Positions 15,301 through 34,270 of a stretch of DNA of 44,118 bases are shown here, one piece after another. Below the pieces are notes generated by a model, which saw only the letters and a program-made list of their open reading frames with translations, was not told the DNA's origin and made no database searches. How positions within the stretch are numbered: the stretch's first letter is position 1; each line of letters opens with the position of its first letter. Made by a program: the position numbers and the translations under genes. The DNA comes from Planctomycetota bacterium (GTDB lineage: Bacteria; Planctomycetota; Planctomycetia; Pirellulales; PLA5): contig QEVJ01000048.1 in assembly GCA_003576845.1 (NCBI GenBank), positions 1-44,118 of the forward strand. The letters run 5' to 3'.

Positions 15301-15494
15301 TCAGACCGCTTGTGGGCGTCGACGGGCAAGCACGGTCGATGCTGCGCATTGCGCGCCGATCGGTAAGCCGGCCTCGCATTTCCGAGGCGACCGTCGACGC
15401 CTTGTTTGCGCAGCCGCTGTCGGGCGCCTTCGATTCGGTTCGCGCGCGGCGAGTCGATAAAACTCGTCGTCTATCCCGCGAGACGGGTGTTTAG
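9306..15494 (+). CDS. LEPR-XLL giant surface protein with four beta-sandwich modules, LamG and dockerin
   Basis: This frame is intact at 2,062 residues, and its start is fixed by the strong ribosome binding site. The N-terminus is basic with the signature CEFLEPRTLLAVV at ~res 36-48. A beta-sandwich module with core DDGxxxYxNGxEVxRxN occurs four times (res ~47-225, 315-492, 607-775, 1147-1325), interleaved with Big_9/cadherin-like domains. A LamG/concanavalin-like domain lies at ~928-1128 (IAYWKLGEPAG, FTIEAWIHPDS, GRIDEVAVYGRAL). Towards the C-terminus come more Big_9 repeats, a low-similarity propeller-like stretch (~1515-1830, VLDTN-type repeats), a final Big_9 domain and a dockerin pair (DLTGDGAFDRSDA, DFDGDGAITLADA, ~1910-1960). 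A large cell-surface or matrix protein is the natural reading; carbohydrate binding by LamG is possible but unproven. The next gene starts 14 bases downstream, suggesting one transcript. Confidence 0.88.
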   Translation: MPRCRAYCIESIHVRFFSRPKAIRTRRRATRLRCEFLEPRTLLAVVSLIDSGSSVRALAPTLDEFSDFGFDWTGVVEPFDDSAWQMGTRGVGYDVNAAAPYASYIGTSVESTMLDNTATAFVRAPFTVVDPAALTGLTLRLRYDDGFIAWINGVEVLRRNALGTYPAWSSGAAAAHTATSAFSTFDMSQFLSLLQPGPNVLAVRGLNVSASDNDFLIQAELDGRDDRPPTAANDVAIGIDGVAVPIDVLGNDAPGTSPLDSGSVRIASPPQFGTATVNVDGTVSYTPRVGYGGADSFSYTVRDTSDVVGPGTTTRTLVSANATAKAFIPTDDELGRSWTGGSEPFNDQAWRSGTLGVGYDTRTAIDDYRPNYDLSVLDMRFVNASAYVRVPFSIDYPAEVQQLTLRMRFDDGFVAYVNGVEVARANAPTPLTYNSSATASTTDADAVVFQEFDISSFAATLEVGGNVLAIHGLNELLDSTDLLIQPELLATVTARGRVSNAATVQLNVVPPNPVANDDTAATLEQTPLAIDVLANDEAGPLGFPIDPTTVEIVAPPTNGTATVDPASGAITYSPGDEFTGQDSFTYRAFDTAPGDGVFGPLTVIPFNAVWKYLPLGPDQGPAAVWAAPEFDDSAWPAGPAELGYGDFDEATLLPADPVGTPTVYFRRTFDVADPDQVYELGITLYRDDGAVVYLNGVEVARSNMPAGPITFYTRAPQFTPDDGEQAFGYAVPRPLLESLLRPGTNTIAVEVHQYADISSDLSFELGLTAEVYVPPGRTTQTATVAVTVAPNPNKPASVADSYVLGEDETLVVSAGAVPAGVLENDTDPNLDTLTALLVAGPAHGVVSLDPDGSFAYTPAADFFGVDSFTYRASDGASLSLPTTATLTIEPRNDAPRTAPDQYAMLEGETLDTTRPPPPDYTATILAAGPIAYWKLGEPAGASDATEIVGGFNGAYNAGVTGGAAGAIVASADTAAQFNGVNGFIDVGYRPALNRSNNFTIEAWIHPDSVSGIRRIVGNPAAGGGFGFGLIDGRLRFTTYTIQDYDTQSVLAAGQWYHVAVVFDASNDATFYVNGEFFQRINGSLAARSSDQRFLIGAGPPYEPFAGRIDEVAVYGRALGAADIRSHYAAGQGRTDLPLPQLVFARGAMWRYRDNLPNGAAYPVDAQGDRWIEPAFDDSGWASGAALLGYGTINAAPIATVIGFGGNANDRYRTALFRRTFEATDVARIASLTFDMLIDDGAAIFINGREVLRRNLPGAAGDATLSTNTLAPVAGDEDNYQSVVVDLESSPDLLVDGTNTIAVEVHQTAPNSSDLGFDLSLVATVLPPPLVVDVLANDADPDGDAIVASLFAAPQHGAVDFRTDGTFVYTPAPGFVGVDTFTYTASDGAEESDATTVTVAVEHLPPAAASDAYATDEDVPLVISAALGVLSNDFDTLGHALTATLIAPPDHGTLTLGADGAFEYVPADNYYGPDRFTYVAGDGERASAAATVLINVSSVNDAPVANDDTYVVPFGASLDAIVPIQFSTAPTGSSVLLPIGGGDLFYDGARHRLYAKAIGALQRYDVAADQVLTPFALPGTVGQGDITSDSRAMYFADGATAPNLGYVQKLDLATAVVSPLSFARGDESGTVNLIIGNTDIAWIHGDKTSANTPVRRVDTRTDTITVQPGPGIYYGFSFHSGPDKSLLVLVHHALSDGGIATARGDTFAGVGNAFTWSYNNGVTAEVNRNGTLVALSCCGGMSIRSRTLQELRVLSNLSRPMAFDPLQDIFYATDLASDELVGLDTNSWQIVTRLPIGENVTGGGDMIVSSNGQFVFMTTPSGVRMLNVGRPGQQIGLLGNDVDPERDVLSVEVVQGPPSGTLEMSRSGTFRYTPGGLSSGTVSFTYRVSDGTAFSNVATATIHVLPVSTDLTGDGAFDRSDAAVLARNFGKTTGATAAQGDFDGDGAITLADAGILQAIMGLSLPGASGSSAMASMVPAAPPSAAEALVATASLDSHIHVRPLVGVDGQARSMLRIARRSVSRPRISEATVDALFAQPLSGAFDSVRARRVDKTRRLSRETGV

Positions 15495-15508: not shown

Positions 15509-18500
15509 ATGAAGTCACGGCGTCGCAAGCACTGCGCTTTGGCTATCGAACGGCTCGAACCGCGCGATTTACTCGCCGCCGCCGAACCGTTGTGGCGATA
15601 TCCGTTCGACGTTGCCTCGGCGCCGGCCGAGTTCACCGTGCCGGGCGGCACATGGCCACAGCCCGGCGGACTGGGATCCCCCGTTACGTTGACGTACAGC
15701 TTGAGCAATCTAACCGACGGCGGTCTTCCGGGCGGTCTTGCCGCGCCACAACTTCGAGCCGCCGTCGAGGAAGCCCTTGGTTTGTGGGCGGCGTACGCGC
15801 CGCTGTACTTCGTCGAGGTAGCCGACAGTGGCCCTGTGCCGGACGACATCGAGTACGCTCCGCAGGATCATCCGCAGCTTCGCATCGGCCATCATGCGAT
15901 CGACGGCGAGGCGTTCCCGGACGAACTCGCGCACGCCTACCTACCGCCCGACGCAGCGTTTGCCGACGGCCTGGCCGGCGACGTTCATTTCGACGACGGC
16001 AATGCGTGGTCCCTCGACCCGGATACGGCCGTCGACGTCCTCGAAGTTCTCGTCCACGAACTGGGCCACGCCCTCGGGCTGGGGCATGAAGAGATCGCAA
16101 CGGCGATCATGAACCCGTTCTATGCCGGCCGGTACGACGGCTTGGGAACGGCCTTTCTATTCGAGGACGATATCGCCGGCATCCGCAGCCTGTACGGCAG
16201 CGGCGTTGGCGCCGTTACGCCGGTCGTCGATATCGGCATCTTTGGCGCGGGAGTCGAAATCGCTTCGGGCGACACCATCGCGTCGACCGCCGACGGCACC
16301 TATTTCGCCACGGCGATTCTCGGCACGGCGGGCATCGAACATTACTTCACGATTACAAACCGCGGTCAAGGCACGCTCGAATTGACCGGCACGCCGGCCG
16401 TCCAACTTGTGGGGCCTGACGCGGGCGATTTCACGGTCGTCGCAGTCCCGGCGACGAGCCTTGCGGCACAGGGTAGCACGACGTTTTCGCTTCGATTCGT
16501 GCCCACGTCCGTCGGTTTGCGCACGGCCGCCGTGCGCATCGCAAGCAACGACGCCGATGAGAGCATCTATGAATTCGCGATCGCCGGGCGTGGCTTGTCG
16601 CCGCAACAGGAAATCGAAATCCTCGGTCGCGGGCAACCCATCGTCGCCGGCGACGCAACGCCATCGGCGGTCGACGGAACGGAATTCGGCTTCGTCAACG
16701 TCAACGGCGGGACGGCGACTCGAACGTTCACGATCGAGAATGCCGGCGCCTCGCGGTTATCGCTGCTGGGCGATCCCAGCGTGGCGCTGGTTGGACCTCA
16801 TGCCGCCGACTTCGCCATTGCGGCGATGCCGGCGGCGGAAATCCCGCGGGAAACGGCCTCCAGCTTCTCGATTCGATTCGATCCGACGGCGATTGGCCTG
16901 CGAACGGCGGTGGTCCGTGTCGCCAGCGACGATGCAGACGAAGACCCCTACGAGTTCACGGTCGCCGGAACCGGTTATGCCGCCAACGCGGAGATCGGCA
17001 TCTTCGGCAACGGTATCTCGATTGCCGACGGCGATGCGACGCCCGGCGTTCTCGACCACACCGCGTTCGGCGCGGCAAACGTCGCCGGCGCTCTGCTCGT
17101 GCGAACGTACACGATTACGAACACGGGCGTTGGGCCATTGCACTTGACCCACGATCCGCCGGTTGCATTGGCGGGATCACACGCCGGCGACTTTCGCGTC
17201 ATCAATCAGCCGGCGACGCCCGTGTTCTCGGGTGGCGCCACGACGTTTTCGATCGCATTCGATCCGTCGGCGGCAGGCACGCGCTCGGCGACCGTCGTCG
17301 TCGAGAACTCGGACGCAAACGAGAACCCGTTCGAGTTTGCCATTTCGGGCAACGGCTTCGCCGCGGCCGCGGAGATCGAAGTTCGGGGCGAAGGGCGGGT
17401 CATTCTCAGCGGCGATGATTCGCCTCAAGGCCTTGATGGCACGGACTTCGGCAATGCCGCCGTCGGTGCGCCGCCCGCGTCGCGAACGTTCGTCGTCGCA
17501 AATGTCGGTTCGGGCGCCCTGAATCTCATCGGCAGCCCGCGCGTGGCGATCACCGGCGAGAACGCCGCGGACTTTCGCGTCAGTTCGTTCCCGCCCGGTG
17601 CGGTGAATGTCGGCGGCACGGTTTCGTTTACGATCGAGTTCTCGCCGAGCGGCGGCGGACGACGAGCCGCCACCGTCAACGTGCCGAGCAACGACGACGA
17701 CGAGAACCCCTACGAGTTCGCCATCGTCGGATTCGGCGCGGCACCGCCCCACGTCGTCGGCGTAACCGTGGGCAGCACGGTCGGCGAACATGCTTTTCAC
17801 GAGTTAGAGGCGGGAACCGGCCGATTGCAGTGGCGACCGCTGCCTTGGGTGAATCTCGATCGCATTGAGGTTCGGTTCGATCAAGACGTCGTCTTGGCGG
17901 CCGGCGACCTGATGCTCGTCGACGGCGCTGGAGCGACGCTCAATTTCGCGCCTGACGGTTTCGACTACGATGGCGCGAGCCATACGGCTGCGTGGCGGTT
18001 CGAGGATGAGTTTGTTTCCTCTCGAATTACACTTCTGCTCAAGAGCTACGACGGAGTGCGGGGTGTCCGGAACGGCGTAGGGACTGCACTCGACGGCGAA
18101 TGGACTGAGCCGACCGCTTACGACGAGCAGACTTCCGATGTGTTTCCGTCAGGCGATGGGATTCCCGGCGGCGACTGTAGGCTAAGCTTTCGCGTCAATC
18201 CTGGCAACGTCGAGCAGGCGATCGTCGACAACGCGGATGAGTCGCTCGACATCAACTGGCTCGATCTGAGGGCCGTGCTGGACCGCCAGTTCCGCGCCGC
18301 CGGCGACGCCGCGTATTCGAAGTGGGCGGACCTCGACGGAAACGGCGCCATTAATGCCGTCGATGCCGTTTTCGCCAACAACTATCGAGACGCCAAGGTC
18401 TCCATAGCGGCGGCCGATGCGGCGATCGCCTCCGTATCCAACAGGGAGTCGTCGCTTCTTGTCGCCTTTCGCCAAAGATTGTCACGGCGGCCAAGCGTGC

Positions 18501-18844
18501 CGCAGCCTCTACCGGAAACAGATATGGTTACGCCAAGGAGTTATACGCTCGCTCGCCAAAGGCCTAAGCGCCAGCGAGCGGCAACGCAGGACCGCGCCGC
18601 TGCGCTTTTGCCAGCCATGCCAGAATTCCGACGTTTACGAAAGGCCCGAATGCCCGAAAGACCGAATGCCAGAGTTTCCGTGACAGGTGAGCGACCCGTG
18701 GGTAAGCCAACGAGCGCCGCTTCAAATTGGACTCGGAGCGCGATGGACCATCATCCAATGCACTTGCACGATCACACTTTCTGGGTCATCGGCACGGAAG
18801 GCGGCCGCATTCCCGAACAAGCTTGGATTCCGACCAACACTTAG
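15509..18844 (+). CDS. LEPR-XLL metzincin-like protease with choice-of-anchor D repeats, dockerin and foreign C-terminal tail
   Basis: The protein has 1,111 residues, and its N-terminal signature LAIERLEPRDLLAAA fits the family. Residues ~45-230 form a matrixin-like (M10-type) zinc metallopeptidase: HELGHALGLGH at 183-193 supplies the three His ligands and catalytic Glu, and the Met-turn is AIMNPF (Met201). Four tandem domains of about 125 residues follow (~240-367, 368-490, 493-617, 620-744), matching choice-of-anchor D/ASH-like Ig folds (xFTIxNxGxxxLxLxG, NDADExxYEFxxxGxG). Residues 747-870 are the beta domain shared with the protein at the left edge. A dockerin-like pair lies at ~910-970. 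After about residue 985 the sequence is arginine-rich filler, then from Met1079 an unmistakable piece of multicopper oxidase (separate entry). The original stop was probably lost by fusion to foreign DNA. No clear Shine-Dalgarno; it is probably co-transcribed with the 9306 gene. Confidence 0.85.
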   Translation: MKSRRRKHCALAIERLEPRDLLAAAEPLWRYPFDVASAPAEFTVPGGTWPQPGGLGSPVTLTYSLSNLTDGGLPGGLAAPQLRAAVEEALGLWAAYAPLYFVEVADSGPVPDDIEYAPQDHPQLRIGHHAIDGEAFPDELAHAYLPPDAAFADGLAGDVHFDDGNAWSLDPDTAVDVLEVLVHELGHALGLGHEEIATAIMNPFYAGRYDGLGTAFLFEDDIAGIRSLYGSGVGAVTPVVDIGIFGAGVEIASGDTIASTADGTYFATAILGTAGIEHYFTITNRGQGTLELTGTPAVQLVGPDAGDFTVVAVPATSLAAQGSTTFSLRFVPTSVGLRTAAVRIASNDADESIYEFAIAGRGLSPQQEIEILGRGQPIVAGDATPSAVDGTEFGFVNVNGGTATRTFTIENAGASRLSLLGDPSVALVGPHAADFAIAAMPAAEIPRETASSFSIRFDPTAIGLRTAVVRVASDDADEDPYEFTVAGTGYAANAEIGIFGNGISIADGDATPGVLDHTAFGAANVAGALLVRTYTITNTGVGPLHLTHDPPVALAGSHAGDFRVINQPATPVFSGGATTFSIAFDPSAAGTRSATVVVENSDANENPFEFAISGNGFAAAAEIEVRGEGRVILSGDDSPQGLDGTDFGNAAVGAPPASRTFVVANVGSGALNLIGSPRVAITGENAADFRVSSFPPGAVNVGGTVSFTIEFSPSGGGRRAATVNVPSNDDDENPYEFAIVGFGAAPPHVVGVTVGSTVGEHAFHELEAGTGRLQWRPLPWVNLDRIEVRFDQDVVLAAGDLMLVDGAGATLNFAPDGFDYDGASHTAAWRFEDEFVSSRITLLLKSYDGVRGVRNGVGTALDGEWTEPTAYDEQTSDVFPSGDGIPGGDCRLSFRVNPGNVEQAIVDNADESLDINWLDLRAVLDRQFRAAGDAAYSKWADLDGNGAINAVDAVFANNYRDAKVSIAAADAAIASVSNRESSLLVAFRQRLSRRPSVPQPLPETDMVTPRSYTLARQRPKRQRAATQDRAAALLPAMPEFRRLRKARMPERPNARVSVTGERPVGKPTSAASNWTRSAMDHHPMHLHDHTFWVIGTEGGRIPEQAWIPTNT
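18546..18580. repeat. inverted repeat in the tail of the protease gene
   Basis: Perfect 8-base arms CGCTCGCT (18546-18553) and AGCGAGCG (18573-18580) flank a 19-base loop. It sits in the non-conserved link between the dockerin and the multicopper oxidase remnant. The sequence resembles the short AGCGAGCG-type interspersed repeats I associate with planctomycete genomes, but only one copy is visible here, so that identification is a guess. Confidence 0.4.
18743..18841 (+). pseudogene. remnant of a multicopper oxidase C-terminal cupredoxin domain
   Basis: In frame with the protease gene, this segment reads HHPMHLHDHTFWVIGTEGG and then RIPEQAWIPTNT. HPMHLHxH is the copper-ligand motif of multicopper oxidases, and FWVxGTEGGRIPxxAWIPxNT is the usual continuation. 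The match stops at 18841, before the second motif (HCHxxxH) that every functional enzyme needs, and nothing upstream resembles the other cupredoxin domains. It is therefore a fragment of about 33 codons, presumably left by deletion of an oxidase gene that once headed the metal locus. Confidence 0.75.
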
Positions 18845-20442: not shown

Positions 20443-21336
20443 ATGTCTCGCAAGTCCCTCGTGGCCGTCGCCGCTGGCGTCGGCATATTGGCTGCCGCAA
20501 TCGCCTTGGCTGGCTGCAACAACCAGCAGCCGGGGCACGTTACGGATTCTGCAAGCGGCACTCCCTCGACCGAACAGAGCGCCGCTTCGACTCACCGAAC
20601 TTCGACCGCAGAGAAGGACGTGACGGACGAACACGCGCACAAGCCGGGCGCCCATGGCGGGATCATCGTCTCACTGGGCCGCGACAGCTACCACGTCGAG
20701 GCGGTGTTCGAACAGGGTGGCTTGCTCCGGCTTCATGTGTTGGGAAGCGATGAAACGAAAGTCCAGGAAATCGATGCCCAGGACCTCTTGGGTTACATCA
20801 AAGCCAGCGACGCCAACGAAGCGATCGCCGTCGTCTTCAAGCCGCAGCCGCAACCGGGAGACACTGCCGGCAAGACGTCGGTCTTCGTCGGTCGGATTCC
20901 CGCCGACCTGGTCGGCAAGAATCTCGACGTCACGGTCCCCAGTGTCCGCATCGCCGGCGAGCGGTTTCGGCTCGGTTTCACGTCGACGCCGCAATCGCAC
21001 GGCGAAGACATCATGCCGGACAAGGTCGGCGATGACGAAGAGCGCGATCTGTACCTGAAACCGGGCGGGCTCTATACGGAAGCCGACATCAAGGCGAACG
21101 GCAACGCGACCGCATCGCAGAAATTCGCCGGCTTCAAGTCGTCGCACGACATGAAGCCCAAACCCGGCGACAAGATCTGCCCGGTCACGATGACCAAAGC
21201 CAATCCGAAATGTACTTGGGTCGTCGGTGGTAAGACGTACGAGTTCTGCTGTCCGCCCTGCGTGGACGAATTCGTCAAATTGGCCAAAGAGAATCCCAAC
21301 GACGTCAAGGATCCCGATGCCTACGTGAAACGGTAA
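20443..21336 (+). CDS. lipoprotein with His-rich segment and C-terminal YHS/TRASH-like Cys cluster
   Basis: 297 residues; AGGAG lies about 9 bases before ATG 20443. The signal peptide ends in the lipobox ALAGC (Cys25). After a Ser/Thr-rich linker comes DEHAHKPGAHGG (res ~65-77), a likely metal-binding patch at the start of a beta-rich domain of about 110 residues (res ~75-190) of unknown family. The C-terminal 55 residues contain CPVTMTKANPKC and YEFCCPPC, spaced like the zinc/copper-binding YHS or TRASH fold (ligands at ~res 243, 254, 265-269). This suggests a membrane-anchored periplasmic metal-binding protein feeding the efflux pumps. It is codirectional with the genes around it, 69 bases before the HMA gene. 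Confidence 0.75.
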   Translation: MSRKSLVAVAAGVGILAAAIALAGCNNQQPGHVTDSASGTPSTEQSAASTHRTSTAEKDVTDEHAHKPGAHGGIIVSLGRDSYHVEAVFEQGGLLRLHVLGSDETKVQEIDAQDLLGYIKASDANEAIAVVFKPQPQPGDTAGKTSVFVGRIPADLVGKNLDVTVPSVRIAGERFRLGFTSTPQSHGEDIMPDKVGDDEERDLYLKPGGLYTEADIKANGNATASQKFAGFKSSHDMKPKPGDKICPVTMTKANPKCTWVVGGKTYEFCCPPCVDEFVKLAKENPNDVKDPDAYVKR

Positions 21337-21405: not shown

Positions 21406-21744
21406 ATGCTACGCACGATGGTTGTTTCAACGATCGCGGCACTGGCGTTTGGTGCGCTGGGTGTCGTCAATTCCGCGCTGGCCGTCGAGAGCCGGACCAC
21501 CTCAATTACGATCGACGGAATGCATTGCGCCGGCTGCGCCAAAAAAATCGCGACGCGCCTGCGGGCGGTCGCCGGCGTGGACGATGCCCAAGTGAGCGCC
21601 GAAACGGGAACTGCCGCAGTGACTCCCAAGGACAAGGCGAACGTCTCGCCGCGATCGTTGTGGGAGTCGATCGAAAAGGCCGGATACACGCCGACGAAGC
21701 TTGTCGGACCCGGCGGTACATTCACGAAGAAACCCGACCGCTAA
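21406..21744 (+). CDS. periplasmic heavy-metal-associated (HMA) protein
   Basis: 112 residues with GGAGA before ATG 21406. A signal peptide (STIAALAFGALGVVNSALA) precedes a single HMA domain of about 65 residues: TTSITIDGMHCAGCAKKI with the CxxC pair in GMHCAGC at ~res 38-44, then VDDAQVSAETGTAAVTP and the final strand SLWESIEKAGYTP. The ferredoxin-like HMA fold binds Cu(I), Hg(II) or similar soft metals through the two Cys. With an export signal it would act as a periplasmic carrier, like MerP or the CusF-type shuttles in role though not in fold. A stem-loop spans its stop codon. It most likely delivers metal to one of the downstream RND systems. Confidence 0.88.
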   Translation: MLRTMVVSTIAALAFGALGVVNSALAVESRTTSITIDGMHCAGCAKKIATRLRAVAGVDDAQVSAETGTAAVTPKDKANVSPRSLWESIEKAGYTPTKLVGPGGTFTKKPDR

Positions 21745-22123: not shown

Positions 22124-24376
22124 ATGACACGCTTCTTCTCGCTCGCCGCAATTGGCTGCGTTTTCGCGATTGCGTTCTACGGCGGCCGCGCGAAAGCCCA
22201 CGAAGGGCACGCGGCGCTGCCGACCAAAGGTACTCAAGTCGATTTGGAGCAAGGCACGGTCTTTCTCAGCCCGGAGGCTCGCGACGCGCTCGCGGTCAAG
22301 ACTGCCGAGGCCGAGTTGCGACCGCTGCAAAAGAGCGTCTTGGCCTATGCGACGCTGGAGTCGCCGTGGACGAAGCACGCGTTTGCCACCAGCCGCGTCG
22401 GCGGACGCATCGAGCGGCTGTTCGTCAAGCCAGGCGAATACGTCACGGCGGGCGATCCATTGGCGGAGGTCCGGAGCCTGGAGTTGGAGAATCTCCAACT
22501 CGAGCTGCTCGATGCACAGAACGCGTGGTCGCTATCGCAAAAGCTGGCCACCCAGAGCGAGCGTTTGGCGCGCGAAGGCGCCGTGCGAAGCCGCGACGCT
22601 TTGGAAGCGGAGGCAAAACGCCGCGAAACCGAAAACGCCGTTAACGTGGCACGACTCAAACTCGCGAGTCTCGGATGGTCGGAGGCGGAGTTGAATCAAT
22701 TTGTCGAACAAGAGACGCCGCGGGAAAGCCGTCCCCTCGTCGTTACCAGCCCGGTCGGCGGAGTCGTCATTCACTCAGACCTGACGGTCGGCAAGGTGGT
22801 CGAGGCGAACGAACATCTATTCGAAGTGGTCGATTTATCGAGCGTGTGGGTCCGCCTCAGCGTCCTGGAAAAAGATTTGTTTGAGGTCGCCGCAGGACAG
22901 GCGGTGGAACTGAATCTGTCTGCGTTTCCCGGCAAGGCATTTCCGTGCCGAGTGCAGGTGAAGAGTCAAGCGCTCGATCCCGACACCCGCTTGGGAACGG
23001 CTTGGGCCGAGTTGTCCAACCCAACCGATAGTGAACCGAGGTTCCTGCCCGGCATGACGGGTCAGGCTCGCATCGTCGTGTTTGCGCCGGGAAAACGAAC
23101 TGCCGTGCCCTCATCCGCCGTCGTCGGCGAAGGGGCGGAGCGCTTCGTGCTCGTCGAAGACGAGGCCACCGCCAAAGGCAGCTCCTTTCGCAAGCGCAAC
23201 GTGGTCGTGGAAACGGTCAACGGCGGCCTGGCCTTCCTGCGGGCGGGAAAAGTCTACCCTGGCGACCAGGTGTTGACGCAAGGAGCGCACATCCTGGCGT
23301 CGTACTTCGCCGCCGGCGTCCTGAGGCCGAGCGAAGAAGCGAAGCAGAGCATCGGCCTGCGGATCGAAACCGTGCAACCGCGCCGCGTCGATTCGATCGC
23401 GGAATTAGACGCCGTCGTCGATGTCCCTCCCGATCGTCGGGCCGTGTTGTCGTCGCAGTTTGCTGGCACTTTGGAGCGGATTCACGTGGATCGGGCGCAA
23501 GCGGTCAAAAAAGGAGACCTAATTGCCGAGGTGGCGAGCCTGGAGTTCCAAAACCTGCAACTGGAGCTGCTCCAGGCCGATCAGGAGGCGAAGCTGCTTT
23601 TAGACCAGCGCAAGTTGATCGGCGGCTTGACCGACGATGCCAACCCCATCGTGGCGCGAAGGCGCCTTTGGGAACTGGAGGCCGCGAACTCCGCGGCCGT
23701 TCATCGCCGCGAAACGGCCCTCCGCAAACTTCGCTCATCCGGACTGAACGATCGCCAGCTCGACGGCTTGCTGCGCGACCAGCGACTGATCGCGGCGCTG
23801 CCGCTCCGCTCGCCGATCGACGGCGCCCTCGTGCATTTCGAGAAATCGCTGGGCCAGGCGGTCAAGCCGGACGAGGCGCTGTTCGAGATTCACGATTTAT
23901 CGCGGGTCTGGGTGAAAGCTTTTCTCTCCGAACAACAAGCGTCGCAGTTTCACTTGAAATCCGCATCGCCGCAAACCGCGCGGATTCGTTTGGCCGCAGA
24001 CGCGAATGCCACGGTGACGGGAAAGGTCGTTCGCAGCGATCGGTTGTTGGACCCAAAGACGCGCGCGCTGTCGATTTGGGTCGAGTTGGATGCTCCGCCG
24101 TCGACGCCTTGGCCTCACAAGATGCTGGCAAGCGTGACGCTGAGCCGCGGTCCGGCGGCAACGGTCCTGGCTGTGCCGCGCCAAGCGATCGCTTGGGATG
24201 GTGCGCGGGCTTTCGTGTTTGTTCAACGACGGGACGGGGTACTGGAACGCAGGACCATCGACGCGGGGAGAATGGACGATCGTTTCGTGGAAGTGATCAA
24301 GGGCTTGCGGGCATCGGAATCAATTGCCGTCAGCGGCGCGGCCGACCTTCAGACGGCCTACGCGACTTTGCGCTAA
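22124..24376 (+). CDS. tandem-duplicated RND efflux periplasmic adaptor (CzcB/CusB-like, two copies in one chain)
   Basis: 750 residues, about twice the usual length. A signal peptide (res 1-25) is followed by AHEGHA. Copy 1 (res ~50-405) has a lipoyl/barrel-sandwich half (GRIERLFVKPGEYVTAGDPL), a helical hairpin (LELENLQLELLDAQ to ~res 180), the returning half (VTSPVGGVVIHSDLTVGKVV), a beta-barrel (VWVRLSVLEKDLFEV) and a membrane-proximal domain. Copy 2 (res ~410-750) repeats the plan: GTLERIHVDRAQAVKKGDL, SLEFQNLQLELLQAD, LRSPIDGALVHFEKSLGQAV, VWVKAFLSEQQ. Normal adaptors work as hexamers, so three of these chains could form the ring. The pump gene starts 18 bases downstream. The copies are diverged, so the duplication is old. 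Confidence 0.85.
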   Translation: MTRFFSLAAIGCVFAIAFYGGRAKAHEGHAALPTKGTQVDLEQGTVFLSPEARDALAVKTAEAELRPLQKSVLAYATLESPWTKHAFATSRVGGRIERLFVKPGEYVTAGDPLAEVRSLELENLQLELLDAQNAWSLSQKLATQSERLAREGAVRSRDALEAEAKRRETENAVNVARLKLASLGWSEAELNQFVEQETPRESRPLVVTSPVGGVVIHSDLTVGKVVEANEHLFEVVDLSSVWVRLSVLEKDLFEVAAGQAVELNLSAFPGKAFPCRVQVKSQALDPDTRLGTAWAELSNPTDSEPRFLPGMTGQARIVVFAPGKRTAVPSSAVVGEGAERFVLVEDEATAKGSSFRKRNVVVETVNGGLAFLRAGKVYPGDQVLTQGAHILASYFAAGVLRPSEEAKQSIGLRIETVQPRRVDSIAELDAVVDVPPDRRAVLSSQFAGTLERIHVDRAQAVKKGDLIAEVASLEFQNLQLELLQADQEAKLLLDQRKLIGGLTDDANPIVARRRLWELEAANSAAVHRRETALRKLRSSGLNDRQLDGLLRDQRLIAALPLRSPIDGALVHFEKSLGQAVKPDEALFEIHDLSRVWVKAFLSEQQASQFHLKSASPQTARIRLAADANATVTGKVVRSDRLLDPKTRALSIWVELDAPPSTPWPHKMLASVTLSRGPAATVLAVPRQAIAWDGARAFVFVQRRDGVLERRTIDAGRMDDRFVEVIKGLRASESIAVSGAADLQTAYATLR

Positions 24377-24394: not shown

Positions 24395-27300
24395 ATGCTG
24401 AACCGCATCATCGCATTCTCGCTGAACAATCGCCTGGTCGTGTTGGCGGCCGCCGCCACGATGATCACGCTGGGCGGTTATCAGTTGACGCAAATGCCGG
24501 TGGACGTCTTCCCCGATCTCAATCGCCCGACCGTCGCCGTGCTCACCGAAGCGCCCGGCATGGCGCCCGAAGAAGTCGAAACGCTCGTAACGCGCCCCAT
24601 TGAGTACCTTCTCAACGGGGCTACCGGCGTGCAGCGTGTGCGTTCTGCCTCCGCTATCGGACTGTCGATTGTATGGGTGGAGTTCGAGTGGGGCACGGAC
24701 ATTTACAAGGACCGCCAGGTCGTTGCCGAGAAGCTGCAATTGGCCAGCGAGCGGCTGCCCCAGGACGTCAACCCGACGATGGCGCCCATCTCATCGATCA
24801 TGGGCGAAATCATGCTGCTGGGACTGCGTTCGACCACCCCGCTTGGGACACCGCAAGCGCAGTCCGAACAGGCCATGCAGCTACGCACGCTGGCCGAGTT
24901 CACGCTTCGCAACCGGCTCCTGGCCGTCGACGGCGTCTCGCAGGTCACGGTCATGGGCGGCACGCTCAAACAGTACCAGGTCATCACGTCGCCCGAGCGT
25001 CTTGCAGCCCAGAACGTGTCGCTACAGCAGCTTGCGGAAGCTGCCGAAAAGGCAAATGTCATCGCCGGCGGCGGCGTCATGGAGCGAGGAGCGCGCGAAA
25101 CGCTCATTCGCATCAGCGGAAAAAGCCTGACCCTTGAGGATATCGAGACCACGCCCGTCGTATGGCGCGAGCCGCGACCCGTCGTGATCCGCGACGTGGC
25201 GGAGGTTCGCTTTGGCGGCCCGGTTCGACGAGGCGATGGCGGCGTGCGAATCAAGGATGGCGACGCGGTGGTCGGCGGCCCCGCCGTCATCATGACGGTG
25301 CAAAAGCAACCGAATGCGAACACGTTGGTTCTCGATCCGAAGATCGAAAGCGTGCTCGCGGAATTGCAGCAAGAGCTTCCGAACGACGTCGTCATCGACC
25401 GGCAGATTTTCAAGCAGGCGGACTTCATCGAGGCCGCGATCGCCAACGTCGAGGAGGCGATTCGGGACGGCGTCGTGTGGGTGTTCTTGATCTTGTTTAT
25501 CTTCCTTTGGAACTTTCGCACAAGCGCCATCACGCTGACGGCAATTCCGTTGTCGCTCTTGATTACCGCCCTCGTGTTTCACTGCTTCGGCGTGACGATC
25601 AACACGATGACGCTCGGCGGCATCGCCGTTGCGATTGGCGAACTTACCGACGACGCGATCGTCGATATCGAGAACATCTATCGCCGCCTTCGCGAGAACC
25701 GCCAATCCGCCAATCCGCGGCCGGCTCTGAAAGTCGTGTTCATGGCTTCCAGCGAAGTGCGGAACTCGATCGTCTATGCGACACTGATCGTGTGTCTGGT
25801 GGTGCTGCCCTTGTTCGCGATGAGCGGCCTTGAGGGCCGCATGTTCGCCCCGCTGGGCCTGGCCTACATGGTCTCGTTGCTGGCGTCGCTTGCCGTGTCG
25901 TTGACCGTCACGCCCGTGCTGGCCTCGCTGCTGCTGTCGCGTGCCCGGTTCATGGAGCGCCGGCAAGACCCGCTCGTTTTGCGCTGGCTGAAGAAAGTCG
26001 ACACGCACGTTTTGCGGTTCGCTTTGCGGCATCCGTGGCCGATCCTGGTCGGCACCATGATCCTCGCGTTTTCGTCAAAACTGGTCGTCTTTTGGATGGG
26101 ATCGGAGTTTCTCCCGCCGTTCAACGAAGGAACGCTCACGATCAATGTCCAAACCGAACCGGGAACGAGTCTCGCCGAAAGTCAACGCATTGCCGAGCGC
26201 GCCGAGAGTTTACTGCTCGGCGTGCCGGAGGTATTGACCGTATCGCGGCGGACGGGCCGCGCCGAGTTGGACGAGCACGCCGAGGGCGTCAACTCGTCCG
26301 AGATCGACGTCCGACTGCAAGCGCATCAGACTTCCCGCCCCGGCTTGCACAACGCCATCCTGCGGGCGATTCCTGGCATGTATTCGTTCGGAGCGGACGT
26401 CGCTGGCCGTCCAAAGCAGCAAGTGCTCGCGGACATTCGGGACCGCATTACCAGCATTCCGAACGTCAAGATCAACATCGGCCAGCCGATTTCCCATCGG
26501 CTCGACCACATCATGTCCGGCGTGCGGGCCCAAATCGCCGTGAAGGTGTTCGGCAGCGATCTTCGAGAGATACGCAACACCGCGCAGGACATTCAATCGG
26601 CGATCGGCGACATTCCGGGCGTCGTCGATCTTCAAGTCGAGCCGCAAGTCGAAATCTCGCAACTTCGGTTGAAGGTCAAGCGGCGCGAGGCGGCCCGCTA
26701 CGGCCTGGCGCCGGGCGACGTCGCCAAGATGCTCGAAACGGCTTACAAGGGGCTCGTCGTATCGGAAATCCTCGACGAAGATCGGCGATTCGAGCTTGTC
26801 GTCTGGTACGACGAGAAATCTCGCAGCGATCCGGCCACCATTAACGAAACGATTCTCGACACTCCGTCTGGCCGCAAAGTTGCGCTCGGGCAAGTCGCCG
26901 AGGTGCTCGACACGAGCGGACCCAATACGCTCAATCGCGAGAATGTCCAGCGACGGATCGTCGTTTCGGCCAACGTACACGGGCGCGACTTGGGCGGAGT
27001 CGTCGCCGATATTCAGACGAAAGTGCAACCGATCGACGAGCGTTTGCGTCAACTAGGAGCCGACTACCGCATCGAGCTCGGCGGTCAGTTCGAAGCGCAA
27101 CAGCAGGCAAACGCGAGATTGCTTCTCTTGGGAGCGCTATCGGTCATCGGTGTGTTTTTGTTGCTTTGGCGATGCCTCGACTCGTGGGTCGCGGCGATGC
27201 AAGTCTTGCTCGTCAATATCCCGTTGGCCGCCTTGGGTTCGGTCGCCATGCTCCTCGCGATCAACCGGCCGACGTGGGACGTGTTGCAGGCGGCGCCGCT

Positions 27301-27916
27301 ATGGGATTGGCCGCGCGTCTGGGCCCAGACGACCACGCTTTCCGTAGCCCATTGGGTCGGCTTCATCACGCTCATCGGCATCGTCAGCCGCAACGGCATT
27401 ATGATGATCTCGCACTACATCCACCTGATGAAGTACGAGGGCGAGAAGTTCGACGAGCACATGATCATTCGCGGCAGCTTGGAACGTCTCGCCCCGGTCC
27501 TGATGACGGCGTTCGTGGCCATCATGGGGCTGATCCCGCTGGCTCTGGGCGCCGGCCAAACCGGCAAGGAGATTCTTCATCCTCTGGCGATCGTCGTCAT
27601 CGGTGGATTGCTCGATTCGACCTTGATGGACCAATTCGTCACGCCGGCCGTTTTCTTCCTGTTCGGCAAACTGTTCGGCCCGCAAATCTACGTGCGGCGG
27701 CCCGCGGGCGGACACGAGAGCGACGTCCTCGAACGCCAGGCCGACGTGCTCTTTCCGGATTTGACCGAACGGCTCGTCGCAGTACCAGACTCCTCGTCAC
27801 CGCCGGGCAACGCGCCGCTGCCCGACACCTTGGTAGCGGAGGGAAACGGTTCCGCGTCCCTTGCGGGGGGTGTCGCCGAAACAGTTCCATCTCTTTCCAA
27901 TGGAGAAAAGCCATGA
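24395..27916 (+). CDS. heavy-metal RND efflux pump, CzcA/CusA family, without the CusA Met triad
   Basis: 1,173 residues, full length for an HME-RND inner-membrane proton antiporter. Family marks: TM1 followed by DVFPDLNRPTVAVLTEAPG, porter domains, the TM4 segment GGIAVAIGELTDDAIVDIEN (res ~407-426, with the Asp aligned to the proton-relay Asp405 of CusA), a second half from EFLPPFNEG (res ~570), and late TM helices (VGFITLIGIVSRNGIMM). Aligned by eye to E. coli CusA, the three copper-binding Met positions (573, 623, 672) fall on Leu (EFLPP), Ser (VNSSEID) and His (RLDHIMSG), so Cu(I)/Ag(I) is less certain and a divalent substrate is possible. The partner is probably the tandem adaptor just upstream. 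Its stop overlaps the next start by ATGA. Confidence 0.9.
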   Translation: MLNRIIAFSLNNRLVVLAAAATMITLGGYQLTQMPVDVFPDLNRPTVAVLTEAPGMAPEEVETLVTRPIEYLLNGATGVQRVRSASAIGLSIVWVEFEWGTDIYKDRQVVAEKLQLASERLPQDVNPTMAPISSIMGEIMLLGLRSTTPLGTPQAQSEQAMQLRTLAEFTLRNRLLAVDGVSQVTVMGGTLKQYQVITSPERLAAQNVSLQQLAEAAEKANVIAGGGVMERGARETLIRISGKSLTLEDIETTPVVWREPRPVVIRDVAEVRFGGPVRRGDGGVRIKDGDAVVGGPAVIMTVQKQPNANTLVLDPKIESVLAELQQELPNDVVIDRQIFKQADFIEAAIANVEEAIRDGVVWVFLILFIFLWNFRTSAITLTAIPLSLLITALVFHCFGVTINTMTLGGIAVAIGELTDDAIVDIENIYRRLRENRQSANPRPALKVVFMASSEVRNSIVYATLIVCLVVLPLFAMSGLEGRMFAPLGLAYMVSLLASLAVSLTVTPVLASLLLSRARFMERRQDPLVLRWLKKVDTHVLRFALRHPWPILVGTMILAFSSKLVVFWMGSEFLPPFNEGTLTINVQTEPGTSLAESQRIAERAESLLLGVPEVLTVSRRTGRAELDEHAEGVNSSEIDVRLQAHQTSRPGLHNAILRAIPGMYSFGADVAGRPKQQVLADIRDRITSIPNVKINIGQPISHRLDHIMSGVRAQIAVKVFGSDLREIRNTAQDIQSAIGDIPGVVDLQVEPQVEISQLRLKVKRREAARYGLAPGDVAKMLETAYKGLVVSEILDEDRRFELVVWYDEKSRSDPATINETILDTPSGRKVALGQVAEVLDTSGPNTLNRENVQRRIVVSANVHGRDLGGVVADIQTKVQPIDERLRQLGADYRIELGGQFEAQQQANARLLLLGALSVIGVFLLLWRCLDSWVAAMQVLLVNIPLAALGSVAMLLAINRPTWDVLQAAPLWDWPRVWAQTTTLSVAHWVGFITLIGIVSRNGIMMISHYIHLMKYEGEKFDEHMIIRGSLERLAPVLMTAFVAIMGLIPLALGAGQTGKEILHPLAIVVIGGLLDSTLMDQFVTPAVFFLFGKLFGPQIYVRRPAGGHESDVLERQADVLFPDLTERLVAVPDSSSPPGNAPLPDTLVAEGNGSASLAGGVAETVPSLSNGEKP

Positions 27917-28449
27917 TTGCTCGCGCACGTCCATTGATCTTCGTCGCTGGGGTTGCGGCATTCGCGCTTCCGCCGCTCGCGGGCTGCTCGAATCAGCCCG
28001 CCGACACTAAGAAGGGTGAAGAGCAGCACGACGACCACGCCCACGACGCACACGGCAAGGATGGCGACGGCGACGGGCATCACCACGAGGGGCACGACCA
28101 CGCGGCGCTTACCGAGCAGGATGTAAAGCTGCCGGAATCCTTTGCGGACGGAGTGGCGCGGCTCGCGAAGTTGCACGAGAAGATCGATCACTTGATCGAG
28201 CACGACGAGCTTGAGGACGTGCACGGCGCCGCGGAAGAAATGGCGATCGTGGCGCGCAAAATGAAGGAATTGGCGGCAACGGACGTTGCCGACGACCGAC
28301 GAGCGGATGCCGGTCGCTTATGCAACGAAATAGCCGGCTACTTCCGGCCAATCGACGAGGCCGCCGACGCCGGCAAGAAGGACGACACGATCGCCATTTA
28401 CAGGCAAATGACGACGGCGATCGGCAAGCTGGACGCCTTGACCAAGTAA
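27913..28449 (+). CDS. His/Asp-rich lipoprotein, translationally coupled to the RND gene
   Basis: 178 residues. The start shares ATGA (27913-27916) with the stop of the pump gene, and GGAG lies about 9 bases upstream. The lipobox is PLAGC (Cys25). The mature N-terminus is a metal-binding string of His, Asp, Glu and Lys (HDDHAHDAHGKDGDGDG then HHHEGHDH; about 10 His within 35 residues). The remaining ~115 residues are helical (LAKLHEKIDHLIEHDEL, AAEEMAIVARKMKELA), reminiscent of small all-helical periplasmic metal-binding proteins such as the CnrX/ZraP group, although I see no exact match. Coupled translation with the pump suggests stoichiometric supply of a metal buffer or sensor. Confidence 0.78.
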   Translation: MIARARPLIFVAGVAAFALPPLAGCSNQPADTKKGEEQHDDHAHDAHGKDGDGDGHHHEGHDHAALTEQDVKLPESFADGVARLAKLHEKIDHLIEHDELEDVHGAAEEMAIVARKMKELAATDVADDRRADAGRLCNEIAGYFRPIDEAADAGKKDDTIAIYRQMTTAIGKLDALTK

Positions 28450-29186: not shown

Positions 29187-30707
29187 ATGCAAGGTGTTCT
29201 CGTGCGCATTCCACAAACCTGGCTCATTTGGATCGGAGTAGCGGTTGTGGTCGTCGCCGCGGTCGCGGGCCTAGTCGCGTTTTTTGGCCCGCCCGCCGAC
29301 GAGAACGCCGACCAAAGCGACGTGTGGACCTGTTCCATGCACCCGCAAGTTCGGCTGCGGGAGCCGGGGGATTGTCCGATCTGCGGCATGAAGCTGATTC
29401 CTTTGTCGGAGTTGACCGACGAGCAGGTTCGCGTCGCGCATCAGGCGCGGATCGTTACCGAGCCGGTGGCGTTCCGCGAGTTGTTCAAGGAAGTGCGCAC
29501 GGTCGGCAAGCTCGATTTCAACGAACGCCGCGTGGCAAACATCGCGTCGCGCGTCGCGGGGCGCGTCGATCGCGTGTTCGTCGATTTCACGGGGATCGAG
29601 GTCAAGAAAGGCGATCATTTGGTTTCGATTTACAGTCCCCAACTCGTCGTCGCCCAGACCGAATTGTTTCGCGCGCTCGAACGTTTTGGGCAGGCCACGC
29701 CCGAGCGCCAACCGCAAGACCGCTCGTTTCTCGACGCCGCCCGGACGAAACTGCAGCTTCTGGGCATCCTCGACGAGCAGATTGCCGAAATGGAGCGTTC
29801 GCGGAAAGAGCTCACGCACTTGACGATCTACGCTCCGATCGGCGGCACGGTGATCGAGAAGGACATTCGCGAAGGGCAGTACGTCGAAGAAGGCGACTCG
29901 CTCTATCGGATTGCCGATCTCGATCCGATCTGGCTTTATCTCGACGTGTATGAATACGACCTCGGTTGGATTCGATACGGTCAGCCCGTCGACGTGCGGT
30001 TGGAAGCGTATCCCGGCGAAGTGTTTCGCGGCACGGTCGTGTTCATCGATCCGTTCTTGGACGACAAGACGCGGACCGTGCGGGTGCGGGTGAATCTCAA
30101 GAACTCGGACCGGCGGCTCAAGCCGGCAATGTACGCGTCGGCCACGATACGCGTGCCGCTCGAGCCGGACGGAACGCCGCGCCCGACGGGCTTGGAAGGC
30201 AAGTACATTTGCCCGATGCACCCGGAAGTGGTCCAAGAAAAGCCCGGCAAATGCCCGATATGCGAGATGCCGCTGGAACCAGTCCCGGCGCCGCGGTTGC
30301 AGTTGCCCCCGCGCGGTAAGCGCGTGCCGGACGCGACCGGCGCCGACGCGAAGGGCAAGGTGCTCTCTGTGCCCGTGTCCGCCGTGCTCGACACCGGTCG
30401 CCGCCGAGTCGTCTATCGCAAGACGAAGGACGGCGCCTTCGAGTTGGCCGAAGTGACGCTCGGTCCGCGCGCCGACGCCCAGCGCGACGGCGAACTCATC
30501 GGATACTACCCGGTGTTTTCCGGGTTGAGCGACGGGGACCGGGTCGTCGTGCGAGGGGCGTTCCTGCTCGATAGCCAACGGCAAATCGAAGGGATGCCAA
30601 GCCTGTTATACGCGGAAGGCCGCGGGCCGGCTAACTTGCACGGCGATCACGGCGGCCACGCGCCCACCGAACCGGCAAGCCCGATGCCGGCCGAGCACAA
30701 ACATTAA
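29187..30707 (+). CDS. cusB: CusB-like RND periplasmic adaptor with two heavy-metal-binding motifs
   Basis: 506 residues. The N-terminus is a membrane anchor (WLIWIGVAVVVVAAVAGLVAFF). A heavy-metal-binding domain follows at ~res 47-70 (WTCSMHPQVRLREPGDCPICGM), then the usual barrel-sandwich, hairpin (DEQIAEMERSRKELTHL), lipoyl return (IYAPIGGTVIEKDIREGQYV) and beta-barrel (WLYLDVYEYDLGWI). A second such domain is inserted at ~res 340-366 (YICPMHPEVVQEKPGKCPIC) with EM instead of the usual GM. The C-terminus is His-rich (HGDHGGHAP...HKH). The ATG at 29187 lacks a ribosome binding site; GTG 29202 has AAGGTG 6 bases upstream and could be the real start, five codons shorter. It pairs with the CusA-like pump 14 bases downstream. 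Confidence 0.88.
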   Translation: MQGVLVRIPQTWLIWIGVAVVVVAAVAGLVAFFGPPADENADQSDVWTCSMHPQVRLREPGDCPICGMKLIPLSELTDEQVRVAHQARIVTEPVAFRELFKEVRTVGKLDFNERRVANIASRVAGRVDRVFVDFTGIEVKKGDHLVSIYSPQLVVAQTELFRALERFGQATPERQPQDRSFLDAARTKLQLLGILDEQIAEMERSRKELTHLTIYAPIGGTVIEKDIREGQYVEEGDSLYRIADLDPIWLYLDVYEYDLGWIRYGQPVDVRLEAYPGEVFRGTVVFIDPFLDDKTRTVRVRVNLKNSDRRLKPAMYASATIRVPLEPDGTPRPTGLEGKYICPMHPEVVQEKPGKCPICEMPLEPVPAPRLQLPPRGKRVPDATGADAKGKVLSVPVSAVLDTGRRRVVYRKTKDGAFELAEVTLGPRADAQRDGELIGYYPVFSGLSDGDRVVVRGAFLLDSQRQIEGMPSLLYAEGRGPANLHGDHGGHAPTEPASPMPAEHKH

Positions 30708-30721
30708 CGGGAGGCACGGCG

Positions 30722-33700
30722 ATGGTTGCCAGTCTCATCCGGTGGTGCCTCGACAATCAATTCCTCGTGGCGCTGGCGACGGTGGCGCTGCTGGTGGCCG
30801 GCTACTATTGCCTCGGCAACACGCCCGTCGACGCGATTCCCGACATCGGCGAGAAACAGGTCATCGTGTTCGCCGATTGGCCGGGCCGCTCGCCGCAGGA
30901 CGTCGAAGACCAGGTGACGTATCCGCTGACCGTCAGCCTGCAAGGCACGCCGGGTGTGAAGACGATTCGCTCGGCGTCGGGCTTCGGGTTCTCGATGATC
31001 TTCGTGATCTTCAAGGACGAGATCGACTACTACTGGGCGAGGTCGCGAGTCTTGGAGCGGATGAACGTGGCGACGACGAAGCTGCCGCAGAACGTCGTGC
31101 CCGTGCTCGGTCCGGACGCGACGGCGTTGGGCCAGGTTTATTGGTACACGCTCGAAGCGGAAGGAGCCGACCTCGCTCAGCTTCGCTCGCTGCAAGACTG
31201 GTACGTCCGCTATCAGTTGCAAGCGGTCGAGGGCGTGTCCGAAGTGGCCAGCGTCGGCGGATTCGTCAAGCAATACCAGGTCGACGTCCATCCCGACAAG
31301 CTGCGGGCCCACCGCGTCGCGCTCGACGAGGTCTACGAAGCGGTCCACAACAGCAACATCGACGTGGGCGCAAAGGTCGTGGAGAAGAACGGGCTGGAGT
31401 TCTTCGTCCGCGGCGTGGGGTTCATCAAGAGCGTGCGCGACGTCGAGAACATCGTGATTCGTCAGGAAGGCGGAACGCCAATCTTCGTCAAGAACGTGGC
31501 GACGGTGCAGCTTGGGCCCGACTTTCGCCGCGGACTGCTCGACAAGCATGGCCGCGAGGCGGTGGGCGGCGTGGTGGTGATGCGATACGGCGAAAACCCG
31601 CTGTCCGTCATCGACCGCCTCAAGGCGAAAATCGCCGAGATCGAGCCGGGCCTGCGGATCACGCTCGCAGACGGCGAAGTGGTGCCCGTGCGGATCGAAT
31701 CGTTCTACGATCGGACGCAGATCGTTCACGAAACGATGGACACGCTCAAAGAGGCGCTCACCGAGGAAGCGCTTGTGGCCGGCGCCATCGTCATCATCTT
31801 TCTGCTGCACCTGCGCAGTTCGCTGTCGATTCTGCCGACGTTGCCGCTTTCCGTGGCGATGAGCTTCATCGTTATGTACATGCTCGGCGTCGACAGCAAC
31901 ATCATGTCGCTCGCGGGCCTGGCAATCGCCATCGGCGACGTGGCCGACATGGGCATCATCATGACGGAGAACATCTATCGCCGGCTGGCCGCCGAGCCGC
32001 ACCGTCCGCATAAGGAGGTCGTCTACGAAGCGGCCGCCGAAGTCGGACCCGCCATCTTGACGGCCGTGTCGAATACGATCGTGTCGTTCATCCCCGTGTT
32101 TCTGCTGGCGGATCAGGAGGGCAAGCTGTTCAAACCGCTGGCGTACACGAAGACATTCGCCATTGCCGCGTCGGTCATCTTGGCGCTTACGCTCGTGCCC
32201 GTGCTGAGCTATCACTTGCTCAAGCCGACGCGGTTGTCGAGGCTTACGTCGCTTTTGTTAGGCATTGCCACGGGAGTCGCCGCCGCGTTTGCCGCCCATT
32301 TCCTGTTGATGTGGGGCTTCGAGCGCGAAACACACTATAGCGGCTGGCCGACGTCGTTCGCGATCGGCATCATGGTCGCCGCGGCGGTCTATCGCATGGG
32401 ACGCGAACGGCTCTTGCCGCTGGAAAGCAACCTCGTCGCCCGCGGCATCGCGGCGGTTTATCGCCCGACGCTCTCGTGGGTGCTTGCTCACAAGGCATCC
32501 TTCCTGACGATTCCGGTGGCGCTTACTTTGTTGGGCATCACGATTTGGCAAGGCTTCGAGCGGATCGCGTCGCCGATCGCGTCGGCGTCTCGCAGCGTTG
32601 GCCTCGATGTCACGGCGACGGGGGCCTGGCAGCGGCTGGCCGCGACGTTCCCCGGCATCGGCCGCGAGTTCATGCCGCCGCTCGACGAAGGATCGCTCCT
32701 GTACATGCCATCGCTGTTGCCCTCGGCGTCGCTCAGCGAGGTGCAAGAAGTCATCGCCCGGCAGGACGAGGCCATCGCCCAAGTGCCGGAAGTGGCGAGC
32801 GTCGTCGGCAAGGCGGGGCGCGCGGAGTCGGCGCTCGATCCCGCGCCGATCGGCATGGTCGAGACGATTATCCTGCTCAAACCGGAAGACGAGTGGCGGA
32901 TGGTCGACGACGGCAAGGGCGGCGAGCGGCGGATCACCAAGAGCGAGATCCTGGCCGAGCTTCAAGCGAAGACGGCCATTCCCGGCGTGTTGCCCACGTG
33001 GCTCCAGCCGATCCAGACGCGGATCGTCATGCTGCAAACCGGTTTTCGCGCCATGATGGGCGTCAAAGTGTTCGGCAGCGACGTCAAGGAAATCGAACGC
33101 ATCGGCCTGCAAATGGAGCAGATTCTCCGCAAGGTACCCGGCGCCACGGACGTCGTGGCCGATCGCATCGTGGGCAAGCCATACATCCAATACGAAATCG
33201 ACCGCGAAGCGATGGCCCGCTACGGCGTCAACATTCGCGACGTGCAGGACGTGATCGAGATCGGCATCGGCGGCGAGAACCTGACGATGTCGGTCGAAGG
33301 CCGCGAGCGTTATCCGATCCGCGTGCGGTATCTTCGCGAGTTGCGCGAGCGATTCGACGATCTGGAGCGCGTCCTCGTCCCGACCTCAGCCGGCGCGCAC
33401 GTGCCGATCGGCCAGCTTGCGCGAATTACCTACACGATCGGCCCGCAGGAACTCAAGAGCGAGCAGGGTCTGCTCGTGGGCTACGTGACGCTGAACACGC
33501 GCGATCGCGATGAGATCAGCGTCGTCGAAGAGGCCGAGGCCTTGCTTCAAGCCGAAAAGCAGCGCAGCGACGAGTTGATCGCCGCCGGCAGGCCCGAGGA
33601 AGCGACGCTCGTCGTGCCGCCCGGCTATTACTGGAAATGGTCGGGCCAGTTCGAGAGCCAGCAGCGCGCCACCGCTCGTCTGTCGATCGTCGTGCCGCTC

Positions 33701-34270
33701 GTGTTGCTGACGATGTTCGTGTTGATCTACGTCGGTTTGGGCCGGTGGTGGCTGGCGCTGGTCGTGTTCTTCGGAATCGTCGTCTCGGCGTCCGGCGGAA
33801 TGCTGATGTTGTATCTGTGGGGCGTGAACCTGAGCGTTGCCGTGTGGGTCGGTTTCATCGCCCTGTTCGGCGTCGTGGACGACAGCAGCGTCGTGATGCT
33901 CGATTTCTTCGAGCGGGCGTTTGCCAAGCACGAACCGCAGTCCATCGCCGACATCCGTGCCACCGTCATGGAAGCGAGCCTCAAACGGGTACGGCCGCTC
34001 TTGATGTCCACCGCCACGACCGTCGTGGGCCTGATGCCGATCTTCCTGACGCAGGGCCGCGGTTCCGACGTCATGCAGCCGATGGCCATTCCCAGCGTTG
34101 GCGGCATGGCCGTTCAGCTCATCACGCTTTTCATCGCTCCGTGTGTATACTGCATGGTCAAAGAGTGGCAACTCGCCCGGAAGTCATCGAAGCTGGAACC
34201 TGCGGCGAAGCCAATGGTTTCCCCACAAGACGGCGTCAGTTCAGCGGCTACTTCAAGCGACCTTCCATAA
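30722..34270 (+). CDS. cusA: CusA-like Cu(I)/Ag(I) RND efflux pump
   Basis: 1,182 residues, start supported by GGGAGG 5 bases upstream. It shows HME-RND marks: DAIPDIGEKQVIVFADWPG, TM4 GLAIAIGDVADMGIIMTEN (res ~398-416), AVWVGFIALFGVVDDSSVVM near the end. The three Met used by E. coli CusA are matched by eye in EFMPPLDEGSLLYMP (res ~648), IGMVETI (res ~709) and RIVMLQTGF (res ~765), which favours Cu(I)/Ag(I). It is about 135 residues longer than E. coli CusA; most of the excess is an insert between TM6 and the second porter half (nt ~32250-32630) with two extra hydrophobic segments (LTSLLLGIATGVAAAFAAHF, TSFAIGIMVAAAVY). No outer-membrane factor gene is nearby. Confidence 0.9.
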   Translation: MVASLIRWCLDNQFLVALATVALLVAGYYCLGNTPVDAIPDIGEKQVIVFADWPGRSPQDVEDQVTYPLTVSLQGTPGVKTIRSASGFGFSMIFVIFKDEIDYYWARSRVLERMNVATTKLPQNVVPVLGPDATALGQVYWYTLEAEGADLAQLRSLQDWYVRYQLQAVEGVSEVASVGGFVKQYQVDVHPDKLRAHRVALDEVYEAVHNSNIDVGAKVVEKNGLEFFVRGVGFIKSVRDVENIVIRQEGGTPIFVKNVATVQLGPDFRRGLLDKHGREAVGGVVVMRYGENPLSVIDRLKAKIAEIEPGLRITLADGEVVPVRIESFYDRTQIVHETMDTLKEALTEEALVAGAIVIIFLLHLRSSLSILPTLPLSVAMSFIVMYMLGVDSNIMSLAGLAIAIGDVADMGIIMTENIYRRLAAEPHRPHKEVVYEAAAEVGPAILTAVSNTIVSFIPVFLLADQEGKLFKPLAYTKTFAIAASVILALTLVPVLSYHLLKPTRLSRLTSLLLGIATGVAAAFAAHFLLMWGFERETHYSGWPTSFAIGIMVAAAVYRMGRERLLPLESNLVARGIAAVYRPTLSWVLAHKASFLTIPVALTLLGITIWQGFERIASPIASASRSVGLDVTATGAWQRLAATFPGIGREFMPPLDEGSLLYMPSLLPSASLSEVQEVIARQDEAIAQVPEVASVVGKAGRAESALDPAPIGMVETIILLKPEDEWRMVDDGKGGERRITKSEILAELQAKTAIPGVLPTWLQPIQTRIVMLQTGFRAMMGVKVFGSDVKEIERIGLQMEQILRKVPGATDVVADRIVGKPYIQYEIDREAMARYGVNIRDVQDVIEIGIGGENLTMSVEGRERYPIRVRYLRELRERFDDLERVLVPTSAGAHVPIGQLARITYTIGPQELKSEQGLLVGYVTLNTRDRDEISVVEEAEALLQAEKQRSDELIAAGRPEEATLVVPPGYYWKWSGQFESQQRATARLSIVVPLVLLTMFVLIYVGLGRWWLALVVFFGIVVSASGGMLMLYLWGVNLSVAVWVGFIALFGVVDDSSVVMLDFFERAFAKHEPQSIADIRATVMEASLKRVRPLLMSTATTVVGLMPIFLTQGRGSDVMQPMAIPSVGGMAVQLITLFIAPCVYCMVKEWQLARKSSKLEPAAKPMVSPQDGVSSAATSSDLP

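Follow-up and report, generated by a model that had tools for sequence, protein, structure and literature searches.

A two-unit periplasmic adaptor encoded beside an HME-family RND pump in Planctomycetota

Introduction

Known RND pumps carry six adaptors on each pump trimer, and in the CusBA complex these are a trimer of dimers made of separate chains (PMC4446572). The TriABC-OpmH pump uses two adaptors, TriA and TriB, and both are required (PMC4338810). Joined adaptors have been described as well. In Desulfitobacterium hafniense, two adaptors are naturally fused in the single chain of the protein DSY0927 (PMC4446572, PMC4338810), and engineered AcrA-AcrA tandem fusions, as they are cited in PMC4446572, show that two covalently joined adaptors can function. 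The membrane-proximal domain of an adaptor docks on the pump, and such domains have been described as characteristic of the adaptors of RND and MacB-like pumps (PMC4446572). Crystals, TriABC, and laboratory fusions have supplied the arguments on whether adaptors act as dimers with non-equivalent positions.

The locus considered here lies in a window of 44,118 nucleotides of planctomycete DNA (the whole stretch that was analyzed). An initial annotation, made from the sequence, claimed that the window encodes an RND adaptor doubled in tandem within one polypeptide, along with a pump at 24395.

Results

A doubled adaptor in one reading frame

The adaptor gene, its parts, and its close neighbors are as follows.

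20443..21336, + strand: putative lipoprotein with a weak TRASH-like metal motif (sub-threshold, 19.5 bits against a cut-off of 27)
21406..21744, + strand: HMA-domain (MerP/CopZ-like) metal-binding protein, upstream of the adaptor (PF00403, 56.7 bits)
22124..24376, + strand: tandem (two-unit) RND periplasmic adaptor, 750 aa (reading of the ORF, profiles, BLASTP of half against half)
22124..22198, + strand: predicted Sec signal peptide, residues 1-25, ending AKA (read from the sequence; tandem adaptors conserve the HxxH junction)
22199..22210, + strand: predicted mature N-terminus HEGH, residues 26-29, a conserved HxxH
22271..23335, + strand: adaptor unit 1, approximately residues 50-404, with predicted lipoyl halves, hairpin, barrel, and membrane-proximal domain (profiles, alignment)
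23336..24373, + strand: adaptor unit 2, residues 405-750, a complete adaptor fold (profiles, structural model)
24395..27916, + strand: HME-family RND pump, 1173 aa, with TM4 motif AVAIGELTDDAIVDIEN (TIGR00914 match)
27913..28449, + strand: His-rich putative lipoprotein whose start overlaps the pump stop (without a Pfam match)

The adaptor ORF opens with ATG and runs through 750 codons with no internal stop. On the full chain, the Pfam profiles HlyD_D23 and HlyD_3 each match two stretches, one per half, with HlyD_D23 scores of 131.6 for unit 1 and 100.8 for unit 2 (cut-off 30). TIGR01730 (RND_mfp) also matches two stretches, for a total of 221 bits. When the halves are presented separately, residues 1-403 score 115.2 bits and residues 404-750 score 116.3 bits against a cut-off of 94.9, and so each unit by itself lies above the curated cut-off for RND adaptors (TIGR01730/PF16576). 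The idea of a doubled adaptor hinged on the second half matching adaptor profiles, which it does. The score against the narrower CzcB/NccB subfamily (TIGR00999), 188 bits with both units combined, falls below that profile's cut-off of 319.3.

The two halves are also recognizably related to each other. The proposed self-alignment gave a BLASTP match with an E-value of 2e-27 and 31% identity over 314 columns. The two sequences initially quoted as marking the repeat, AEVRSLELENLQLELL in unit 1 and AEVASLEFQNLQLELL in unit 2, occur in the chain at the coordinates claimed for them; they are the ends of the first lipoyl half-motif in the respective units. The original claim of a tandem doubling is thus borne out.

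Unit 2 (residues 405-750) was modeled by AF2 from a seven-row alignment, with a mean pLDDT of 87.1. The model presents, in order, the first membrane-proximal strands, a lipoyl half, a two-helix hairpin, the second lipoyl half, the barrel, and the C-terminal membrane-proximal strands. Unit 2 therefore has lipoyl halves and a barrel of its own, and the chain is not limited to a single barrel-sandwich domain, the outcome that had been named as fatal to the claim. A structural search with the model (residues 1-346) placed CusB, as it stands in the CusBA complex, at the top (Z 19.4 over 306 residues, rmsd 9.6). We read the high rmsd as a reflection of the known flexibility between adaptor domains. 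In a profile search against solved structures, ZneB and CusB ranked first. For unit 1, profile and alignment span the full adaptor. The full-length model that covers unit 1, built from an alignment of three sequences, was poor (pLDDT 50) and was set aside as uninformative on the relative placement of the units. Profiles, the unit 2 model, and conservation show that one exported chain carries two complete adaptor units, i.e., that it is a fused dimeric adaptor.

Right behind the predicted signal peptide, 54 of 56 tandem adaptors carry HxxH, mostly as HEGH, a pattern found near the N-terminus in 0 of 42 single adaptors. This element could be an N-terminal histidine metal site.

The pump and other neighbors

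The gene downstream proved to be an RND pump, as proposed. It starts 18 nt beyond the adaptor stop, and its score against TIGR00914 (734.3 bits, cut-off 701.45) places it in the CusA/CzcA family, hence among HME pumps. The motif in its TM4 follows AVAIG[DE]L[VT]DD[SA]IVD[IV]EN; the DFG-DGA-VEN of HME1 and HME2 (PMC3637150) is not found in TM4, which reads AVAIGELTDDAIVDIEN.

Further downstream are a gene encoding a YHS protein and then a second, separate HME system (29187-34270 of the window), consisting of a single adaptor with two HMBD metal domains and a pump of 1182 aa. Elsewhere in the window, at 9306-15494 and 15509-18844, lie two very long ORFs of 2062 and 1111 aa, both with an LEPRxLLA-like N-terminal motif. 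There is no gene for an outer-membrane factor on the window's contig; such genes are present elsewhere in the same genome.

Occurrence in related genomes

Genomes were searched with the 750-aa protein at E <= 1e-35, the window's own genome being counted. It had matches in 9 of 392 genomes sampled across the phylum, in 46 of 396 from the order, and in 76 of 397 from the class (the three samples overlap). Nearly all matches cover both units within one frame, and the search for other two-unit adaptors suggested in the initial annotation yielded 55 further distinct sequences, making 56 in Planctomycetota with the window's own. That so many others share the arrangement excludes chance and assembly error.

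Wherever the contig extends past the tandem adaptor, an RND pump frame lies directly 3' of it, usually after a gap of a few bases, and at the loci examined the two were never seen separated by a further adaptor gene. A gene for an outer-membrane factor directly precedes the pair in two genomes (G021 and G024) and lies within a few kilobases of it at several other loci.

Some apparent variants were rejected. Frames of 969-2068 aa that could be taken for adaptor-pump or triple fusions are stop-free extensions in GC-rich DNA, with a normal tandem adaptor within. A search of plasmids matched 483 records; the 15 places listed, each of about 1 kb, are single adaptors matched by both halves of the query. 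No match for the tandem adaptor was found in viral contigs.

Two architectures

The tandem adaptors fall into two types. Type A, the kind found in the window, accounts for 39 of the 56 distinct sequences and has two complete units, whose hairpin segments are of similar mean length (89.9 residues in unit 1 vs 89.0 in unit 2). In all 39, the junction is of constant length, 40 residues, and leads from the C-terminal domain of unit 1 into the first strand of unit 2.

The remaining 17 are of type B (loci L046-L058, L060, L061, L064, and L065) and are monophyletic whether judged by unit 1, by unit 2, or by the pump. Their second unit has lost both membrane-proximal parts: they have no counterpart of the C-terminal part (equivalent to residues 691-740), and the N-terminal strand has given way to a flexible linker made largely of Pro, Ala, Ser, and Thr. 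In 11 of the 17, the hairpin segment of unit 2 exceeds its unit 1 counterpart by exactly 8 residues. All tandem adaptors, of either type, keep the membrane-proximal domain in unit 1. Since the domain is lost from unit 2 only, the two positions are not equivalent, and among the sequence evidence this unit-specific loss is what most strongly suggests that they differ in role.

The type B linker bears on whether the units remain joined. Perhaps a cut separates the units once the chain has been exported, the fusion being a device for producing equal amounts of two adaptors, as TriA and TriB are produced from separate genes. The flexible linker of type B could be cut in this way. The type A junction, however, is constant and direct, leaving no obvious loose linker to cut, and we regard cleavage as improbable.

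Trees and origin

A careful tree combined 15 single adaptors with both kinds of unit, 20 first and 20 second. All first units fall into a single clade (support 100/99), all second units into another (95/92), and each of these clades spans distant families of the phylum. The two unite before any single adaptor, with support (92/76) that is not firm. A larger tree of 154 units gave the same picture, apart from two single adaptors on very long branches, which lie beside the second units. In the pump tree, pumps linked to tandem adaptors form one clade (100), and within the same tree type B pumps form one clade (100). The other HME pumps of the window's genome fall outside the tandem-linked clade. 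The nearest of them (L153, positions 2485-9698 of contig C113) is accompanied by a single, ordinary adaptor with a His-rich N-terminus and by an upstream outer-membrane factor gene.

The separation of the unit clades indicates that fusion or duplication happened once, long ago, and that the units have not been homogenized since. The simplest reading of the trees is that a single ancient duplication-fusion was passed down as a cassette together with its pump and that the units never mixed later. An origin from two unrelated adaptors, like that of DSY0927, is not favored, because first and second units cluster with each other and away from single adaptors, albeit with the modest support just given.

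One might suppose instead that the doubled gene is a recent local duplication or an assembly artefact, functionally meaningless. The window's genome has only one tandem adaptor gene, and one other genome of the same genus has no match at E 1e-40, as this view would lead one to expect. Against it stand the relatives, the separate unit clades, and the co-inherited pumps. The unit trees and the relatives rule it out, leaving it a probability that is close to nil.

Discussion

How the tandem adaptor may work

We put at roughly 0.74 the probability that the protein serves a tripartite HME-RND metal efflux pump as its adaptor, with two protomers permanently joined, three chains for each pump trimer, and roles split between the units. 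The six adaptor positions of the tripartite metal pump would most likely be filled by three chains, a 3:3 stoichiometry. That metal is the substrate and that labor is divided between the units, we infer.

The events may be pictured as follows. The tandem chain would be exported. The end of unit 1, its membrane-proximal domain, continues straight into the opening strand of unit 2, and this direct passage would set the two units next to each other at the inner membrane. Three fused dimers would then surround one trimer of the next-door pump, with the hairpins of both units extending toward the outer-membrane channel. Since the membrane-proximal domain docks on the pump, is always present in unit 1, and can be lost from unit 2 alone, the comparison suggests that the essential contact with pump and membrane probably falls to unit 1. 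Unit 2 would probably serve mainly to complete and seal the channel.

A solved structure offers a parallel. Chain 6vej_P has 695 residues, is present in three copies, and matches the adaptor profile in two stretches. PDB 6vej is an engineered TriA-TriB fusion, made in the laboratory. It has the same two-unit architecture and three chains, and it is a direct precedent for three fused chains filling six places.

A different arrangement would place only one unit of each chain in the adaptor ring, with six chains per pump and the other unit stacked above or outside the ring or bound to a second partner. The units do differ, and in type B the second lacks the domain that touches the pump. However, the lipoyl halves, hairpin, and barrel are similarly conserved in both units, and three fused chains exactly fill the six ring positions, as in the three-chain 6vej entry. 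We consider this arrangement unlikely, if somewhat less so than cleavage.

The original proposal was that a fused dimer would enforce alternating, non-equivalent positions around the pump trimer. Enforcement of this kind is well supported, if indirectly, by the sequence comparisons: the unit clades are separate, the loss in type B is confined to unit 2, and tandem-linked pumps form a clade of their own. It is about an even bet that the two adaptor positions in Planctomycetota are genetically fixed and functionally split and that, in one clade, only three of the six touch the base of the pump. The last point would follow from the absence of the membrane-proximal domain at the second position of type B. 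If true, type B would be a natural dissection of the adaptor contacts that an RND pump requires. As type B shows, one position can dispense with a domain considered characteristic of these adaptors.

The fusion would hard-wire paired adaptor positions that other pumps build from separate subunits. In planctomycetes it was made by evolution and retained across the phylum, and its units never mixed. It also makes each adaptor position separately mutable in one gene, which is impossible in pumps with six identical adaptors.

Comparison with known systems

In the open-access papers searched, we found neither a fused HME-RND pump adaptor that is lineage-wide nor any description of type B. Within that literature, fused adaptors both natural (DSY0927) and engineered are already known, and the lineage-wide HME-RND version is new.

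The planctomycete adaptor resembles CusB, CzcB, and ZneB in that each unit matches the same profiles, unit 2 has the same four-domain fold, and the adjoining gene encodes a pump of the CusA/CzcA family. Those adaptors, however, have one unit per chain, and the planctomycete adaptor has two. It would share with TriA and TriB the presence of two diverged adaptors per pump protomer, but these are encoded naturally by separate genes and serve a drug pump. The AcrA-AcrA fusions differ in being laboratory constructs of identical units. As for DSY0927, its predicted partner is an ABC transporter, its host is Gram-positive, and its halves are different kinds of adaptor, the first without a coiled coil. 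In the planctomycete adaptor, by contrast, both units are complete and apparently of common origin, and the partner is an HME-RND pump.
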